Source: Desulfoplanes formicivorans (lineage in GTDB: Bacteria > Desulfobacterota > Desulfovibrionia > Desulfovibrionales > Desulfomicrobiaceae). Taken from it: a DNA stretch of 64,000 nucleotides. The stretch is from NCBI RefSeq assembly GCF_001748225.1, contig NZ_BDFE01000016.1, positions 124,001 through 188,000 of the forward strand, given 5' to 3'. Positions within the stretch are counted from its first letter, which is position 1. Each line of letters opens with the position of its first letter. Made by a program: the position numbers and the translations under genes. Below are positions 21,484-29,799 of the stretch, piece by piece. The notes below the pieces were generated by a model. The model had not been told where the DNA came from. It ran no database searches and saw nothing but the letters and a program-made list of their open reading frames with translations.

Positions 21484-21774
21484 AAAAGTGCGCAGTGCAC
21501 AGTGCGCAGTGCGCAGAAAAAACCACACGAATCGTTTCTCACTGTGCACTGTGTACTAGATGATCTGCGAAAACACGGTGGAAGAGAAAATTCTCAAGCT
21601 CCAGGAGCAGAAAAAAGGTATTGCCGATTCCATCATCCCCTGCCAGAATGCCTGGAAATCACTGACCAGGGCGACCTGGAGATGCTGTTTGAAGTATAAA
21701 AAAGAACGCAGTACACAGTGCGCAGTGCACAGAAAAAACCACACGAATCGTTTCTCACTGTGCACTGTGCACTT
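21341..21774. repeat. tandem duplication of a ~217-bp unit (SNF2 3' end plus palindromic block)
   Basis: Unit 1 (21341-21557) holds the last codons of the SNF2 gene, then a GTGC/GCAC-rich palindromic block around a conserved AAAAAACCACACGAATCG core. Unit 2 (21558 to about 21774) repeats the same order with substitutions. In the coding part the first four or five differences fall at synonymous third positions, and there is one single-base deletion near the end. Confidence 0.85.
21558..21699 (+). pseudogene. orphan 3' fragment of an SNF2 helicase gene
   Basis: This repeats the last 47 or so codons of the upstream helicase gene, from MICENTVEEKILKLQ to LFEV. It has no start region of its own, a changed stretch in the middle and a one-base deletion (AGGGACGAC to AGGGCGAC) that shifts the frame before the end. 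It cannot make a functional protein and is best read as the remnant of a second copy. Confidence 0.8.
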
Positions 21775-21921
21775 CTGTGTACTGTGCCCTGTGCACTGTG
21801 CACTTCTGTGTACTGTGCCCTGCGCACTGCGTACTTCAGTGCCCTGCGCACTGTGCACTGTGCACTTCTGTGTACTGTGCCCTGCGCACTGCGTACTTCA
21901 GTGCCCTGCGCACTGTGCACT
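21700..21921. repeat. heptamer-based repeat array (CTGTGCA-type) before bioA
   Basis: After the second palindromic block the sequence consists of imperfect 7-base units (CTGTGCA, CTGCGCA, CTGTGCC, CTGCGTA) in groups separated by 10-base spacers (CTTCTGTGTA or CTTCAGTGCC). Because GTGCAC is self-complementary, long stretches can fold into hairpins. The array ends 8 bases before the bioA start, so it occupies the place where a promoter and ribosome binding site would be expected. Confidence 0.85.
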
Positions 21922-21929
21922 AATATTAT

Positions 21930-23225
21930 ATGACCAACCCATCCATGGACAATCTTCTTGCCTTTGACCGTGAACATATCTGGCATCCCTACACCTCCAT
22001 GAGCAACCCTCTGCCGGTTTTTCCGGTTCGCTCGGCCAATGGAGTACGCATTACCCTGGCCGACGGGAGGGAACTCATCGATGGCATGTCTTCCTGGTGG
22101 GCGGCCATTCACGGATACAACCATCCGGTACTCAACCAGGCGGCTACCCAACAGATCCAGACCATGTCCCATGTCATGTTCGGAGGCCTGACCCATGAAC
22201 CGGCAGTCACCCTGGCCCGTCTTCTAACGGATCTTGCTCCAGAGGGTCTGACCAGGGTTTTCCTGGCGGACTCGGGTTCTGTGGCCGTGGAAGTAGCCTT
22301 GAAAATGGCCCTGCAATACTGGTTTTCCCAGGGGCAGAAACAGAAAAACCGCCTGATGACCATCCGCGGAGGGTATCACGGGGATACCTTCGGGGCCATG
22401 AGCGTGTGCGATCCGGTTACCGGGATGCACGAAATCTTCCGGGGCGTTATGCCTGAGCATATTTTTGCCCCCCGACCATCCTGCCCCTACGGGGAGACCT
22501 TTGCCCCCGGCTGCATGCACGCCTTTGAAACCCTCATCAAGGACCATGCCCATGAGCTGGCAGCGGTTATTCTGGAACCCATTGTCCAGGGAGCCGGGGG
22601 CATGTGGTTTTATGCGCCCGAGTATCTGACCCGGGTCCGGGAACTCTGCAACGCCCACAACGTGCTGTTGATCGCCGATGAAATCGCAACGGGATTCGGC
22701 CGCACCGGGACCATGTTTGCCTGCGAACATGCTGGTATCACCCCGGACATCATGTGCGTGGGCAAGGCCCTGACCGGGGGCTACATGACCCTTTCCGCCA
22801 CACTGACCACCGACAGGGTTGCCGAAAGGATTTCCCAGGGATCGGTTCCCTGCCTGATGCACGGCCCCACCTTCATGGGCAATCCCCTTGCCTGCGCCAT
22901 TGCCTGCGCGTCCATCAAACTCCTTGTTGCCACGCCGTGGCAAAAAAGGATTCAACACATAAGCGATCAATTGCGTCAGGAACTCGAACCGTGCCGTGCA
23001 TCCCGCAAGGTTGCCGATGTCAGGGTCCTTGGCGCCATAGGCGTGGTTGAAATGCATGATCCCGTGGACATGGCTGCACTTCAGGCGTTTTTTGTTGATC
23101 AGGGCGTGTGGATACGCCCCTTTGGCCGACTCGTGTATGTCATGCCGCCCTATATCATCCAACCCGACGATCTGAGCCGGGTCACCCGGGCCATCAGGGC
23201 CGTTGCAACCGGGGACCATGATTGA
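21930..23225 (+). CDS. bioA: adenosylmethionine-8-amino-7-oxononanoate aminotransferase
   Basis: BioA is the PLP enzyme that converts KAPA to DAPA with S-adenosylmethionine as amino donor, the third step of the late biotin pathway. Visible features are the N-terminal [42 protein letters not shown], the PLP-binding Asp250 ([14 protein letters not shown]) and the Schiff-base Lys279 ([11 protein letters not shown]). The length of 431 residues is normal. The ATG at 21930 follows directly on an AT-rich TAATATTAT stretch and the heptamer array, with no Shine-Dalgarno sequence. Translation may therefore be leaderless or weak, or depend on RNA structure. bioD follows after 63 bases. Confidence 0.97.
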
Positions 23226-23288
23226 CAGGGGATCATCCATGGGAGCATGTGTACAGGTTGAACAACACTGCAACCCTTCACACATGCC

Positions 23289-23927
23289 ATGATTTTTCCC
23301 CAACGTTTTTGTATTACAGGTACGGATACGGATATCGGCAAGACCGTTGTGGCGGCCCTACTCACCAAGGGCCTTGGGGCCAGCTATTTCAAGCCCATTC
23401 AAAGCGGCACCGACCAGGGATCAGACACGGATACGGTCAGACACCTGACCGGCCTGCCCCAAGACCACTTTATCCCGCCCGTCTACACCTTCAAGGCGCC
23501 CCTTTCTCCCCATCTGGCTGCCGAGCAGGAACAGGTTCACATCGATCTTTCCAGGATAACCCTGCCGTCCCAGGCGGGCCCACCAGCTTCACGATCACAT
23601 CTTGTGGTGGAAGGAGCAGGCGGACTCATGGTTCCCCTCAACGACAGGGAACTGATGATCGACCTGATCGGACAACTGGCTCTTCCCGTTATTCTCGTGG
23701 CTGCCAACCGTCTGGGTACCATCAACCAGACCCTGCTGTCCCTGCAGGCTCTGGCCCTGCGATCCATACCCGTTATCGGGGTCATCCTGAACCTGGGGAG
23801 AGATGACAACAATGCCAGGGCCATTGCCCATTTTGGCAAGGTCCCCATTCTTGCCCAGATCCCCCGGCTTGACCCCCTGTCCCCCTCAGCTCTTGCAACC
23901 GGCTTCAACCGTTTCTTTGGCGACTAA
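23289..23927 (+). CDS. bioD: dethiobiotin synthetase
   Basis: BioD closes the ureido ring of dethiobiotin from DAPA, CO2 and ATP. It has the P-loop GTDTDIGKT (residues 11-19), the conserved YFKPIQSG, and VVEGAGGLMVPL in the second nucleotide-binding region, over the typical length (212 residues). It lies between bioA and bioB on the same strand, with only 6 bases before bioB, so the three form one operon. Confidence 0.96.
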   Translation: MIFPQRFCITGTDTDIGKTVVAALLTKGLGASYFKPIQSGTDQGSDTDTVRHLTGLPQDHFIPPVYTFKAPLSPHLAAEQEQVHIDLSRITLPSQAGPPASRSHLVVEGAGGLMVPLNDRELMIDLIGQLALPVILVAANRLGTINQTLLSLQALALRSIPVIGVILNLGRDDNNARAIAHFGKVPILAQIPRLDPLSPSALATGFNRFFGD

Positions 23928-23933
23928 CTGCCC

Positions 23934-24926
23934 ATGTCCATATCCACATACCGCATTCTTGATCTGGCTGAAAAAGCCCTGACCATCAGGCTCACCCGAG
24001 ACGAACTCCTCCAGCTGATCCCCCTTCCCGACCAGGCCCTGACAGGACTCTGGGCGGGGGCCGAACGGATCCGAACCCATTTTTTTGGCACATCCATCCA
24101 TTTGTGCACCATATGCAACGCCAAATCCGGTCGCTGCTCGGAAGACTGCCACTACTGCGCTCAGTCAGCGCATTTTGACACCCATGTTGCGGCTTATCCC
24201 CTGTTGCCCCACGACCAACTGGTTCAAGACGGCATGCTCGCTGCACATTCTCCCATCCACCGCTATGCCATGGTGACCTCCGGCCGGAGACTCCCCAAAC
24301 AGGAAATCCCCCAGGTGGCCAAGGCCATGGGGGATCTGCAAGAAGCCAACGTTAATCTGTGCGCATCACTCGGCATTCTTGATAAAGAGGACCTGCTAAC
24401 CCTCAAGGCCCATGGCATGACCCGATACCATCACAATCTGGAGACGTGTCGGGAGCTTTTTCCACGCATCTGCACCACACATGGTTTTGAGGAACGTGTA
24501 GCAACCCTGCGCATGGCCAAAGAAATCGGTCTTCAGGTGTGCTCGGGAGGTATTTTCGGCATGGGCGAAAACCTGGAACAGACCCTTGATCTGGCCCTGA
24601 CCCTGCGAGACATTGATGTGGATGCAGTGCCCATGAATTTTCTCATTCCCATCCCGGGAACCCCTCTTGAAAATACTCGTCCATTGCAGCCTCTTGAATG
24701 CCTGCGCCGCATCGCCCTGTTTCGCTTCGCCCTTCCCGACAAGGAAATCATCATCTGCGGCGGCCGGGTGGCCAACCTCAAGGAACTTCACCCCATGGTC
24801 TTCCAGGCCGGAGCCAGCGGCATCATGACCGGCAACTATCTCACCCGCCAGGGAAGAACCCTCCAACAGGATCTCGACCTTCTGGAACATCTCGGGCTTG
24901 AGCCAAGAAAACCATCAGGCCATTGA
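23934..24926 (+). CDS. bioB: biotin synthase (radical SAM)
   Basis: BioB inserts sulfur into dethiobiotin. The radical-SAM CxxxCxxC motif is present (Cys68, Cys72, Cys75; CSEDCHYC), followed by CAQSAHF and the later YHHNLETC and IPGTPLE regions of the family. The 330-residue length is normal. The gene closes the bioA-bioD-bioB operon and faces bioC across about 115 bases in which I saw no convincing terminator hairpin. Confidence 0.96.
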   Translation: MSISTYRILDLAEKALTIRLTRDELLQLIPLPDQALTGLWAGAERIRTHFFGTSIHLCTICNAKSGRCSEDCHYCAQSAHFDTHVAAYPLLPHDQLVQDGMLAAHSPIHRYAMVTSGRRLPKQEIPQVAKAMGDLQEANVNLCASLGILDKEDLLTLKAHGMTRYHHNLETCRELFPRICTTHGFEERVATLRMAKEIGLQVCSGGIFGMGENLEQTLDLALTLRDIDVDAVPMNFLIPIPGTPLENTRPLQPLECLRRIALFRFALPDKEIIICGGRVANLKELHPMVFQAGASGIMTGNYLTRQGRTLQQDLDLLEHLGLEPRKPSGH

Positions 24927-25042
24927 TAACCCCTTCATGACGGCCCAGACAGGCTCATAAGGGACAATCCGGCCTCCAGCCCCCCATAACCTTCACGTCT
25001 GAACGATTCGAGACAAACCCGGATCTTTTGGCGTGCCCGCTG

Positions 25043-25807
25043 TCACTCCCTTTCCCTGTGTCCCTGGAGATAGAGCACCTCATAGGTGGCCCGCACCCCG
25101 TCCTTGTCGCGATACCTGGCTGCATACTCCCTGCAGAATGCGGCATATCGACGACGGCCGATTCGACCCATGCCCGGAGTAGCCTTGGCCCCTGTTCCCT
25201 GTTGGGACCGAAGAAAGGTTCCAACGGAATCATAATGCCAGACCAGCTCCCGGGTATGCCCCTTCCAGCGTATTCCCCTGATCCCGGACATGATCCGTTC
25301 ATAAAAGGCAACCGAGTGCAGGGGAAAAACCGAACCAAAACCGGTTTTCCGGCTCACCTCACCCAGTTCCTTCAGGGTCCCGTCAACAAACAGGGCCAGA
25401 ACAAAATCCCCACCAGGACGAAGCAGGGCAAGATTGGCAGGAATCGAACGCTCCGGGTCAAGATACCATTGCAGGGAAGAGGCGCTGACCAAAAGATCGA
25501 TGTGCAGGGGTTGCAAAGGCGGGGTTTCCCCGTCACCCACCAGGGGCATTACACAGGGCAGGGAAGAAAAAATCGGTTTTTTGACCATGCCATGGGCCAG
25601 ATCCAGGGCCAGATAGACGCGAGGCCTGATCCTGGGAACAAGGAGCCCGGTCAGGAACCCGGCACCCGAACCGATCTCAAGAACCGTGTCATAGGTTGTA
25701 TCGGCTACCAGTCTGGCACAATCATGAGCTACATCCTGCTGGACAAGGGCCCACTTCTCATACGACCGGCTGGCACGATCAAAGGCGTTTCTGATACGGG
25801 ATTTCAA
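25043..25807 (-). CDS. bioC: malonyl-ACP O-methyltransferase
   Basis: BioC methylates malonyl-ACP to start pimelate assembly on the fatty-acid machinery. The SAM-binding motif VLEIGSGAG lies at residues 42-50, after an N-terminal segment SRIRNAFDRASRSYEKWALVQ that is typical of BioC. I chose the TTG at 25807, which overlaps the stop of the upstream esterase gene as TTGA. This gives 254 residues, close to E. coli BioC, while the longer open frame upstream is only the shadow of the esterase gene. The overlap suggests translation coupled to the esterase. It is last in the bioF-bioH-bioC operon. Confidence 0.85.
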   Translation of the reverse strand: MKSRIRNAFDRASRSYEKWALVQQDVAHDCARLVADTTYDTVLEIGSGAGFLTGLLVPRIRPRVYLALDLAHGMVKKPIFSSLPCVMPLVGDGETPPLQPLHIDLLVSASSLQWYLDPERSIPANLALLRPGGDFVLALFVDGTLKELGEVSRKTGFGSVFPLHSVAFYERIMSGIRGIRWKGHTRELVWHYDSVGTFLRSQQGTGAKATPGMGRIGRRRYAAFCREYAARYRDKDGVRATYEVLYLQGHRERE

Positions 25808-26439
25808 GGGATGCTGGACTCCACAAGGGAAGTGAGGAGATGGTCGGGAACAAAATGGCCACAGGGAAAACAATGGACCTTTGCCCGGGGCAAAAGGGAA
25901 CCAACACGGGCAAAAGCCCTTTTGGGAACAATCCGGTCCTTTGAACCGTGCACAAGATGAATGGGTGTTTGGACGTCGGCCAGAAGGTCGGGAATGCACC
26001 GGGACCTGACAAGATAAGCAAGTCCCCTTATGAGCTGGTCAACATGCACCCCTTCAAGGGGCACAGCAAGATCACTCGGCACCCCGCAATTGGCATAAAA
26101 CGCCGTGAGTACACCAGGCCCTTCCTGTTCAAGACGCGCCTGCATGTTTCTGATAATCCGACAGGGAAGGCATGCGGTAAAATCCAGAAACGGGGCGACC
26201 AGCACAACCCGCGCAAACCGGTCAATGATATCTGCTCCCCATTTGAGGACCATGTGCGCTCCCGTGGACCAGGCCACAAGGGTCTGGTCCCCATCCTGAC
26301 CCAGCAGAATGTTTCTTATGGCCTGTTCGCCATGGGGAGCAAAGGGAACATAAAAATGAGGCAGCCTGCCCAAAAAGGGAAACAACTCCCTGTACCCGGC
26401 CCAGCCCGAAAGGAAACAGATAGGCTGCAGACCGCTCAT
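25804..26439 (-). CDS. alpha/beta hydrolase, probable pimeloyl-ACP methyl ester esterase (BioH role)
   Basis: A small alpha/beta hydrolase (211 residues) lies between bioF and bioC. This is where the esterase that releases pimeloyl-ACP from its methyl ester (BioH, BioG and analogues) is expected. The nucleophile elbow reads A-W-S58-T-G, so the first glycine of GxSxG is alanine. Asp in GSKDRIVP and His in CGHFVPD complete a triad. The start ATG at 26439 overlaps the bioF stop as ATGA; longer upstream frames are shadows of bioF. The function is inferred from context and fold, and I cannot tell which of the unrelated BioH-type subfamilies it belongs to. Confidence 0.75.
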   Translation of the reverse strand: MSGLQPICFLSGWAGYRELFPFLGRLPHFYVPFAPHGEQAIRNILLGQDGDQTLVAWSTGAHMVLKWGADIIDRFARVVLVAPFLDFTACLPCRIIRNMQARLEQEGPGVLTAFYANCGVPSDLAVPLEGVHVDQLIRGLAYLVRSRCIPDLLADVQTPIHLVHGSKDRIVPKRAFARVGSLLPRAKVHCFPCGHFVPDHLLTSLVESSIP

Positions 26440-27605
26440 GCCATGGCCTCCTGCAGGCGAACAAAGGCCGTACGGACCTTGGCTAAATGCTCCGGCAGCA
26501 TATCCGCCCTCAGGGCCAACCGAAGGCGCGAAGTCCCTTGGGGAACGGTCGGCGGCCTGATGGCGGCAACAAGGACGCCGGATGCCAGAAGATGATCCCG
26601 GGCCCACAAGGTTTTTGCATTGTCCCTGATGATCACGGGAATGATCTGCGTGGTCGATGGACCCACATCAAACCCCAGGGAAGCCAGGAACCCGCGAAAC
26701 CGGGCTGCAAGCTCCAAAAGCCTGTCCCCTTCCTGGGGATGGTCCTGCACCCAGCGTACCCCGCAAAGCCCGGCACCGATCACTGATGGGGGCAAGGCCG
26801 TGGAAAAAACAAACGACCGGGCCAGATTTTTGAGCAGATCAACCACTTCCTGTCGGGCACACACAAAGCCTCCGTAGCTTCCGAGCCCCTTGCTCAAGGT
26901 TCCCATGTGCAGATGGATTTCGCGTTCAAGCCCCAGCTCACAGGCAAGGCCCCTGCCCTGTCCCACAATGCCGGTGGCATGGGCCTCGTCCACGGCCATG
27001 ATCACATCATGTTCCCTGCATAATGCCACAAGGGCACCCAGGTCGGCCCGGTCACCATCCATGCTGAACACGGAATCGGTGATGAGAAACTTCTCGCGGA
27101 TATCCCGGTTTTTTTTCAGACAATAGGCCAGATGATCCATGTCGTTGTGCCGGTAGCGCACATGACGCGCCCGAGACAGGACGATCCCGTCCACAATGGA
27201 GGCGTGATTGAGGCGATCGGAAAACACAACACTCCCGCGCCCTGCCAGAGCGGTCACCAGCCCCACATTGGCGGCATACCCGGACCCGAAAACAAGGCAG
27301 GCCTCCTGTTTCTTGAGCTCGGCCAGGGCGGACTCCAACTGGTTGTACAATCCAAAGGTCCCGGTAACCAGACGGGAAGCACCACTGGAGGTTCCGTAGG
27401 CCATGACCCCTTGCATGGCGGCCTCTTTCATGGCCTCTTGTCCGGCCAACCCCAGGTAATTGTTGGAGGCCAGGTTGATGACCTGCCGGCCGTTCAGGGA
27501 AACAATCAGATCCGCCCCATGATCAATATCCGGGATTTCACGCCACCTCCCCCCGGTCTTGAGGCTGTTCCGTTTGGCAACCAGCCACTCATCAAAAAAA
27601 CTCAT
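26436..27605 (-). CDS. bioF: 8-amino-7-oxononanoate synthase
   Basis: BioF condenses pimeloyl-ACP with alanine to give KAPA, using PLP. The family signatures are NYLGLAG, YGTSSGASRLVTGT, DEAHATGIVG (206-215) and the PLP Lys239 in GTLSKGLGSYGGF. The 389-residue length is typical. It leads the minus-strand operon bioF-bioH-bioC, in which each pair overlaps by four bases, and converges on bioA-bioD-bioB. Together the six genes cover the route from malonyl-ACP priming to biotin, apart from the fatty-acid cycle enzymes. Confidence 0.96.
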   Translation of the reverse strand: MSFFDEWLVAKRNSLKTGGRWREIPDIDHGADLIVSLNGRQVINLASNNYLGLAGQEAMKEAAMQGVMAYGTSSGASRLVTGTFGLYNQLESALAELKKQEACLVFGSGYAANVGLVTALAGRGSVVFSDRLNHASIVDGIVLSRARHVRYRHNDMDHLAYCLKKNRDIREKFLITDSVFSMDGDRADLGALVALCREHDVIMAVDEAHATGIVGQGRGLACELGLEREIHLHMGTLSKGLGSYGGFVCARQEVVDLLKNLARSFVFSTALPPSVIGAGLCGVRWVQDHPQEGDRLLELAARFRGFLASLGFDVGPSTTQIIPVIIRDNAKTLWARDHLLASGVLVAAIRPPTVPQGTSRLRLALRADMLPEHLAKVRTAFVRLQEAMA

Positions 27606-28308: not shown

Positions 28309-29799
28309 ATGCTTGTGTATCTCAAAATCCTTATTCTCCTCTGGCTCATCAATTTCGCCCCTCCCCTTGCCGCCTATTTTTTCGAGGACAAGGGCAATCT
28401 CCCTGTTGACAGAGGAAAAGCGTGGCTGGACGGAGAACCCCTTCTGGGCTCCCACAAGACCTTTCGGGGGCTTGGGGCAGGATTGGTCTTTGGCCTGTTT
28501 TTCGGATATGCGTTGGGGCTGACCCCATGGACGGGTGGGATTTGCGCCCTCTTGAGCATGCTGGGCGATCTGTGCTCGAGCTTTGTCAAACGACGGTTGA
28601 AAATCCCCAGCGGCAACGACCGTCCCGGACTGGATCAGGGGGTGGAAGGTTTCTTGCCCCTTGTGTACCTCAGGTACCACCTCGGTCTGCCGTGGGTGGA
28701 TCTCGTCTTGATGCTGGTCGTATTTTCCGGCGTGGCCTATGTGGGGTCGCGCATGTACAAGGCGTTTTTGCAATCCGCAACAAGCAGATACGCCGACTAC
28801 CCAAGGCCTCTCAATCCCCGGGTTCTGACCAAGGAGTTGGCGTCCTGCCACCTGCAGTCAAGGTTCTGGCGCAGCTGCATCCATTTTGAAGATGCCATCT
28901 ACTACCATCTGATCATTCAGACGGTGTTTAAGACCTTGGGACTCTACAATCGCGGCAAGGCCAATGCCCTGTGTTTTGAACGCAACGACATGGAAATCCA
29001 ACTGGACCATCTTCCCGCACCTTTTGACGAATTTCGCATCCTGTTCATGAGCGATCTCCATCTCGACGGTCTTCCCGGTCTTTCCGAACGTCTGGTCAGC
29101 CTGCTGCCCAAAATCAAAGTGGATTTGTGTCTTTTGGGCGGAGATTACCGCATGGCCACCCATGGCAGCTACCGCGATTCCCTGACCCGACTTGAAATGG
29201 TCATGGCCGCGATCAGGTCACGACACGGCATATGTGCCGTTCTTGGCAACCACGATTGCATCGAGATGACCGACGCCTTGATGGGCATGGGAGTCCAGGT
29301 GCTGGTCAATGATGCCCTGTGTATCAAAAAACAGGGAGAATACCTGTGGATCGCCGGGGCCGATGACCCCCATTACTACAAATGTCACAACATTGATCAA
29401 ACCTTTGAAGCCGTCCCCCGGGGGGATTGCACCATCTTCCTGGCCCATTCCCCGGAATTGTACCGGGAAGTCTGCTCCAGGGCCGATCTCTACCTGGCCG
29501 GTCATACCCATGGTGGCCAGATCCGGATTCCGCCCCTGGGCCCGGTGTTCACCCATTGCAAGGCTCCCCGGCGAGTGTGTTCCGGCCGATGGTTGGAAGA
29601 AAGCATGCAGGGGTATACCAGTAACGGGGTCGGTGTGTCGGGAGTTCCGGTCCGGTTCAATTGTCCCGGAGAAATCGTGGTCCTGACCCTGCGGTGTCCA
29701 CCCCAAACAAGAGAAACAGGGAAACCAGGCACGAATCAACGCCAAACAGACGCACGCCCGCCCCAGACACATGCAGACCAGGGTCACAAAATGCCATAG
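28309..29799 (+). CDS. fusion: CDP-archaeol-synthase-like membrane domain + calcineurin-like metallophosphoesterase
   Basis: Residues 1-150 form a membrane domain with helices near 4-22, 54-84 and 129-148. It holds the CTP-transferase hallmarks of the CarS/DUF46 group: PLLGSHKTFRG (45-53) and GDLCSSFVKRRLKIPSGNDRPGLDQ-like elements (86-110, key residues G86, D87, K94, R95, D109). Residues 240-470 form a metallophosphoesterase with SDLHLDG (D249, H251), GGD (277-279), GNHD (313-316), AHSPEL and GHTHGGQI, closest to the YkuE type. The last 30 residues are low complexity. A nucleotide-activated lipid that is made and then cleaved, or a membrane-tethered phosphoesterase, are both possible. No strong ribosome binding site precedes the ATG. 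Confidence 0.75.
   Translation: MLVYLKILILLWLINFAPPLAAYFFEDKGNLPVDRGKAWLDGEPLLGSHKTFRGLGAGLVFGLFFGYALGLTPWTGGICALLSMLGDLCSSFVKRRLKIPSGNDRPGLDQGVEGFLPLVYLRYHLGLPWVDLVLMLVVFSGVAYVGSRMYKAFLQSATSRYADYPRPLNPRVLTKELASCHLQSRFWRSCIHFEDAIYYHLIIQTVFKTLGLYNRGKANALCFERNDMEIQLDHLPAPFDEFRILFMSDLHLDGLPGLSERLVSLLPKIKVDLCLLGGDYRMATHGSYRDSLTRLEMVMAAIRSRHGICAVLGNHDCIEMTDALMGMGVQVLVNDALCIKKQGEYLWIAGADDPHYYKCHNIDQTFEAVPRGDCTIFLAHSPELYREVCSRADLYLAGHTHGGQIRIPPLGPVFTHCKAPRRVCSGRWLEESMQGYTSNGVGVSGVPVRFNCPGEIVVLTLRCPPQTRETGKPGTNQRQTDARPPQTHADQGHKMP

Follow-up and report, generated by a model that had tools for sequence, protein, structure and literature searches.

The CdsA-PgsA-PGP phosphatase route to phosphatidylglycerol combines activation, head-group transfer and dephosphorylation, and mutually unrelated PGP phosphatases replace one another. 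The archaeal CarS of A. pernix (ApCarS; structure 5guf) has five membrane helices and a CTP site formed by two cytoplasmic loops, and bacterial CdsA is a member of the same CTP-transferase superfamily that presumably shares its chemistry with the CarS-type domain described here, (PMC9385802). Within a window of 64,000 nucleotides from Desulfoplanes formicivorans (the whole stretch of DNA analysed), a domain of the CarS type is joined in one protein to a phosphoesterase.

Architecture and conservation of the fusion

The gene comprises the following features.

28309..29799, + strand: whole fusion gene (CarS-like domain, linker and metallophosphoesterase); single ORF of 496 aa with an ATG start
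28309..28758, + strand: CarS-like CTP:lipid-phosphate cytidylyltransferase domain; spans residues 1-150 and is predicted to contain five long helices; PF01864, 5guf fold
28408..28470, + strand: first putative CTP-site stretch, D34, D41, G47, K50, T51 and G54 (GSHKTFRG); each in 70/70 fusions, aligned with 5guf
28564..28659, + strand: second putative CTP-site stretch, G86, D87, S91, K94, R95, R96, D109, Q110, E113 and P117; each in 70/70 fusions except Q110 (66/70) and P117 (69/70)
28759..28992, + strand: helical linker, residues 151-228; C180 and G216 invariant in the 70 fusions
28993..29697, + strand: calcineurin-like phosphoesterase domain, residues 229-463; PF00149, metal-site residues in 70/70 fusions
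29698..29796, + strand: C-terminal tail, residues 464-496; the last ~34 residues (463-496) are unconserved across the fusions and poorly predicted in the model

The initial annotation described a membrane CTP-transferase-like domain joined to a metallophosphoesterase, and Pfam recognizes both halves. PF01864 (CarS-like) matches residues 16-145 with 46.5 bits (cut-off 22) and PF00149 (Metallophos) residues 242-402 with 44.5 bits (cut-off 21.5); PF01148 (CdsA) gives no match in the protein at an E-value of 0.001. All NCBIfam matches fall below their cut-offs: YaeI (NF008460) with 90.6 bits against 188, the CDP-archaeol synthase equivalog (NF003114) with 65.3 against 148, and LpxG (NF033458) with 51.1 against 350. 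ApCarS is the sole solved protein matched by sequence at E-values up to 1 (E = 4e-9). The GSHKTFRG motif noted at the outset occupies residues 47-54, and the GD...KRR motif and LDQ (residues 108-110) are likewise present, with six residues between GD and KRR rather than the five first counted. The phosphoesterase contains every metal motif attributed to it: D249/H251, GD at 278-279, GNHD at 313-316, H380 and GHTH at 398-401.

Scanning genome contigs yielded 75 related loci, 64 of them full-length fusions. This excludes an assembly or frame artefact and confirms that the fusion is real; the remaining 11 are explained by a contig end that cuts the gene, two split frames, or a phosphoesterase alone. 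Record titles place the fusions in Desulfobulbales-type and other deltaproteobacterial genomes and in Gammaproteobacteria (Thioalkalivibrio, Thiohalocapsa, Ectothiorhodospiraceae, Thiotrichales). We aligned 70 of them, namely the 64 full-length loci, the window protein and five relatives from the order of the window. In the CarS half, D34, D41, G47, K50, T51, G54, G86, D87, S91, K94, R95, R96, D109 and E113 are present in 70/70, the CTP site here being the motif positions taken as such by alignment with ApCarS. In the phosphoesterase half the same holds for D249, H251, D279, N314, H315, H380, H399 and H401, so that the DxH, GD, GNHD, H and GHxH metal motifs of calcineurin-like metallophosphoesterases occur in all 70 fusions.

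This invariance decides whether the N-terminal part could be a mere membrane anchor of the phosphoesterase, a reading that the initial annotation had tied to an absence of CTP-site residues on alignment. Some phosphoesterase relatives do occur without a CarS domain, as an anchor would allow. However, the CTP-site residues align with those of 5guf and are invariant in the fusions, and the same domain with the same residues also exists as a stand-alone gene. We therefore reject the anchor-only reading, to which we give almost no credence.

An AlphaFold2 model built from 62 sequences (mean pLDDT 89.9, pTM 0.85) contains long helices at residues 2-25, 52-68, 73-96, 109-125 and 129-160, followed by the helical linker and a mixed domain. 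The top VIA-align match is 5guf (Z 16.8, rmsd 2.2 Å over 143 residues). Next come matches of the second half to the metallophosphoesterases Mre11 (15.2), GpdQ (14.5) and Rv0805 (14.2); most entries in these tables reflect the phosphoesterase half, and a family missing from them carries no meaning. Together, sequence and model delineate a predicted N-terminal five-helix CarS-type domain whose putative CTP site is intact; behind it come the helical linker and a phosphoesterase with an intact dinuclear metal site. If the ApCarS topology applies, the CarS half would end in the cytoplasm, placing the phosphoesterase on the side of the membrane that also holds the CTP site. YaeI and LpxG, whose models are the nearest named ones for the C-terminal half, resemble it in having all metal motifs, but E. 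coli YaeI is exported, whereas the fusion phosphoesterase is predicted to be cytoplasmic.

No operon surrounds the window fusion; the genes on both sides are on the opposite strand. Elsewhere in the window, positions 21930-27605 hold biotin genes in two groups, bioA-bioD-bioB on the + strand and bioF-esterase-bioC on the - strand. The bioF and bioC genes were scored against NCBIfam, and bioA, bioD and bioB are presumed from their translations. An imperfect tandem repeat with a period of 31 or 62, resembling CTGTGCACTGTGCACTT, lies just before bioA at 21758-21921.

Relation to archaeal CarS and CdsA

PF01864 matches were found in 60/345 genomes of the phylum, many of them cross-matches to CdsA, and in 98/369 gammaproteobacterial genomes. 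The 30 Desulfobacterota loci examined comprise 13 fusions, ten unfused CarS genes of a bacterial clade, three archaeal-type CarS genes and four that are CdsA-like or unassigned; an eleventh unfused clade gene of the phylum (G390, locus L170) was read apart from these 30. The gammaproteobacterial sample consists of 40 loci with an unfused gene, 39 of the bacterial clade and one archaeal-type. We built a tree of 89 sequences rooted on archaeal-type bacterial sequences; L265, one of the 22 convergent gammaproteobacterial loci described below, and many of the 70 fusions are outside it. The 11 sequences paired with a PHP-domain phosphoesterase form a clade with a support of 0.98, the 32 fused sequences form another with a support of only 0.69, and convergent and unpaired CarS sequences are intermixed. 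All 89 sequences have G47, K50, T51, G54, S91, K94, R95 and D109 in common, while N15, P18, E113 and P117 mark the bacterial clade against the archaeal-type sequences. The CTP-site residues are conserved in the 83 clade sequences, fused or unfused. On the evidence of its sequence, the window domain is assigned to this bacterial CarS clade.

The predicted five-helix fold and the residues of D..D..GxxKTxxG and GD...S..KRR...LDQ are common to the window domain and ApCarS. The bacterial clade differs in N15/P18 and in the acidic spacing after KRR, which is DQxxE here and DQxD in ApCarS (LDQLD); E113 is invariant in the 83 clade sequences and not in the six archaeal-type ones. The window domain differs further in its fusion to a phosphoesterase and in a host without GGGPS.

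Automatic Pfam naming would have the fusion make archaeal-type CDP-archaeol, and the initial annotation likewise drew a link to archaeal lipids. The PF01864 match and the CarS fold agree with such a product, yet several observations make it highly improbable. A search for PcrB/GGGPS (PF01884) gave no match in the window genome, with 7/14 control genomes positive. In 14 further fusion genomes it gave just four partial matches, each spanning 37-56 of the 226 positions and embedded in a longer, different reading frame; a single one (25.2 bits) exceeds the cut-off, and we read them as other barrel proteins. The protein scores below the NCBIfam cut-off for CDP-archaeol synthase, and its CarS domain falls in the bacterial clade. 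The window genome has its own ordinary CdsA, encoded separately, and three CDP-alcohol transferases, two of which are PgsA and PssA by NCBIfam cut-off and the third just below the PgsA cut-off. Finally, genomes G429 and G410 each hold an archaeal-type CarS (L160 and L162) alongside a separate CarS of the bacterial clade (L159 and L161). We reject archaeal lipid synthesis as the likely role, as GGGPS is missing from the window genome.

The archaeal-type genes have neighbourhoods of their own. In L160 (G429:C19), L162 (G410:C94) and L284, archaeal-type CarS is clustered with a PssA-like CDP-alcohol transferase, a UbiA-family prenyltransferase and a PPDK-like protein, and L252/L285 (G527) contain a similar cluster. 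L160 additionally encodes a PS decarboxylase and a protein that combines an HMG-CoA reductase with an EcKL-type kinase. Clusters of the L160/L162/L284 type are possibly an archaeal-style phospholipid cluster in bacteria. In L156 and L157, archaeal-type CarS directly adjoins a protein of about 387 aa; the L157 protein belongs to the radical-SAM family (Pfam, 58 bits) and weakly matches the tetraether synthase Tes (34.6 bits against a cut-off of 450).

Phosphoesterase partners of the bacterial clade

The pairing of CarS with a phosphoesterase recurs in three arrangements: fused, as adjacent convergent genes, and with an adjacent PHP phosphoesterase. In 22/40 gammaproteobacterial loci, CarS is adjoined by a phosphoesterase from the subfamily seen in the fusion (profile E-value 1e-80 or better). 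The two genes invariably lie on opposite strands with their 3' ends facing, at spacings that range from a 13-base overlap to a 207-base gap. Separate convergent neighbours of the same two kinds are found on alphaproteobacterial plasmids of M. nodulans and Bosea; in a third plasmid record with CarS, which is unannotated, no such phosphoesterase partner was seen.

Unfused CarS genes of the Desulfobacterota are followed, on the same strand, by a PHP-domain phosphoesterase of unrelated fold. Orthologues of this protein (>370 bits) occur in 11/345 genomes of the phylum, exactly the 11 found to have an unfused clade CarS, and adjoin CarS in ten of them (about 1.5 kb away in the other). None was found in the fusion genomes of the 345-genome sample. 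The histidines and acidic residues of its motifs, the presumed metal ligands of PHP enzymes, are invariant in the nine sequences aligned. Around ten PHP relatives of lower similarity (245-288 bits) the neighbours vary, and no clade CarS adjoins them. The association of two unrelated phosphoesterase folds with one CTP-transferase clade argues that the pathway needs phosphate removal and not a particular protein.

The two genes are not obligate partners. Eighteen gammaproteobacterial genomes have CarS but no phosphoesterase adjoining it. Thirteen of them lack the phosphoesterase altogether, which indicates that CarS can work without it; in the other five it is encoded elsewhere, in one case next to a second CarS. 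The phosphoesterase was present in just one of 20 genomes without CarS, in a search that recovered two positive controls; in Gammaproteobacteria it is mostly found together with CarS. Relatives consisting of the phosphoesterase only, without CarS (L012-L016, L018, L019), also exist, and such relatives occur in the window's own order. Genes for signalling proteins or a histidine phosphatase flank these seven loci, and no common partner was seen among them.

Two housekeeping roles for the phosphoesterase were considered and are not supported. PgpA and LpxI are each present in 40/41 genomes tested (the PgpA exception is 77% complete), 24 of the 41 being taken as fused and three of these (G253, G331, G396) by frame length alone. 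The phosphoesterase is thus not needed for ordinary phosphatidylglycerol synthesis and no LpxG role is required of it, so the fusion does not simply replace an absent PGP phosphatase or an absent UDP-diacylglucosamine hydrolase.

Neighbouring genes and a proposed phospholipid module

A gene for a CDP-alcohol phosphatidyltransferase (PF01066) directly adjoins the fusion on the same strand in 10/69 loci (upstream of it in four, downstream in six), and two further fusion loci have one within the examined stretch, not adjacent. The ten fusions concerned are only 50-75% identical to one another. By a rough binomial estimate, which treats related loci as independent and assumes a per-genome gene number, this adjacency is far beyond chance. 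Among the gammaproteobacterial loci, a CDP-alcohol phosphatidyltransferase is near CarS in 4/40, in one case 667 bases away. The transferase is not adjacent to the window fusion or in most fusion loci. Other lipid-related neighbours are an acyl-activating and acyltransferase protein that adjoins the M. nodulans pair and a ClsB-like gene in L237. A radical-SAM protein of about 440 aa is encoded just upstream of the fusion in 17/69 loci (for example L100:4513-5844 and L043:1288-2619).

Where a transferase gene adjoins the fusion, its presence suggests a possible third enzyme whose step would come between those of the two halves. We tentatively propose, giving the idea slightly less than an even chance, that the fusion is a bifunctional inner-membrane enzyme of a second, dispensable phospholipid head-group module parallel to CdsA/PgsA/PgpA. 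The CarS domain would transfer CMP from CTP onto a phosphorylated membrane lipid, yielding CDP-lipid and PPi. A CDP-alcohol phosphatidyltransferase, as a separate enzyme encoded next to some fusions and elsewhere in the window genome, would then exchange CMP for a phosphorylated head group, and the phosphoesterase domain would remove the terminal phosphate of the resulting phospholipid phosphate. In other lineages the two activities would reside in separate neighbouring genes, or a PHP-family enzyme would take the place of the phosphoesterase. With a CDP-alcohol transferase beside some members, activation, head-group transfer and dephosphorylation make up the simplest scheme. These are the same three activities as in the CdsA-PgsA-PGP phosphatase route; since PgpA and PgsA are already in place, the module would be parallel to that route and act on another substrate.

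A different use of the same two sites is that the phosphoesterase cleaves the CDP-lipid hydrolytically, releasing CMP and the lipid phosphate, so that the fusion would make and break one activated lipid as a brake, for proof-reading or for turnover. LpxH and LpxG carry out such hydrolysis on UDP-lipids, LpxG being a UDP-lipid diphosphatase. The weak matches to YaeI and LpxG point in this direction, and a fusion would bring both sites onto one lipid. Yet both matches lie far under their cut-offs, a constant cycle would squander CTP, and the adjacent CDP-alcohol transferase would be left unexplained. We regard this reading as unlikely.

The phosphoesterase could also act before CarS, converting a lipid diphosphate or similar compound to the monophosphate for cytidylylation, and so help to recycle a polyprenyl or another lipid carrier. 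The coupling of the two halves holds regardless of the order of steps. An EcKL-type small-molecule kinase is encoded beside CarS in L240 (4874-5860) and, by likeness only, in L241; following CarS there, it could be a source of phosphorylated substrate and suggests a lipid-phosphate supply organized around CarS. An MsbA-like gene directly before CarS in L159 and an LptD-like gene adjoining the PHP gene in L163 give some PHP-paired genes an envelope context, which we take only as a hint to their role and to envelope carriers. However, these lipopolysaccharide neighbours are seen in the PHP clade only. This order of steps seems to us quite improbable.

The proposed head-group module accords with the suggestion in the initial annotation of an uncharacterized lipid step, which is the most economical reading; the invariant CTP-site and metal-site residues and a pairing that recurs in three arrangements speak for the module. 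Related bacteria with both activities as separate adjacent genes likewise point to an undescribed membrane-lipid step. A literature search of open-licence PMC papers found no description of the bacterial CarS clade, its phosphoesterase fusion or the exchange of partners; both kinds of enzyme are known already, and it is the clade, the fusion and the phosphoesterase-partner exchange that were not found in the searchable literature.

Clade genes can carry the annotation 'CDP-archaeol synthase', as on both the M. nodulans and Bosea plasmids, even though we found no archaeal lipid pathway in the host of the window. The pattern of partners, with a phosphoesterase that is fused, convergent or an unrelated neighbour, shows the co-workers of the enzyme and makes its role directly testable. 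It is possible, though we hold this more loosely than the module itself, that Proteobacteria and Desulfobacterota have a clade of bacterial CDP-lipid synthases, distinct from CdsA and archaeal CarS, which together with a dedicated phosphoesterase of one of two unrelated folds and a CDP-alcohol transferase would constitute a complete second phospholipid pathway and make a membrane lipid that has not been sought. If a new phospholipid is indeed made, it would be a widespread lipid, unseen so far.
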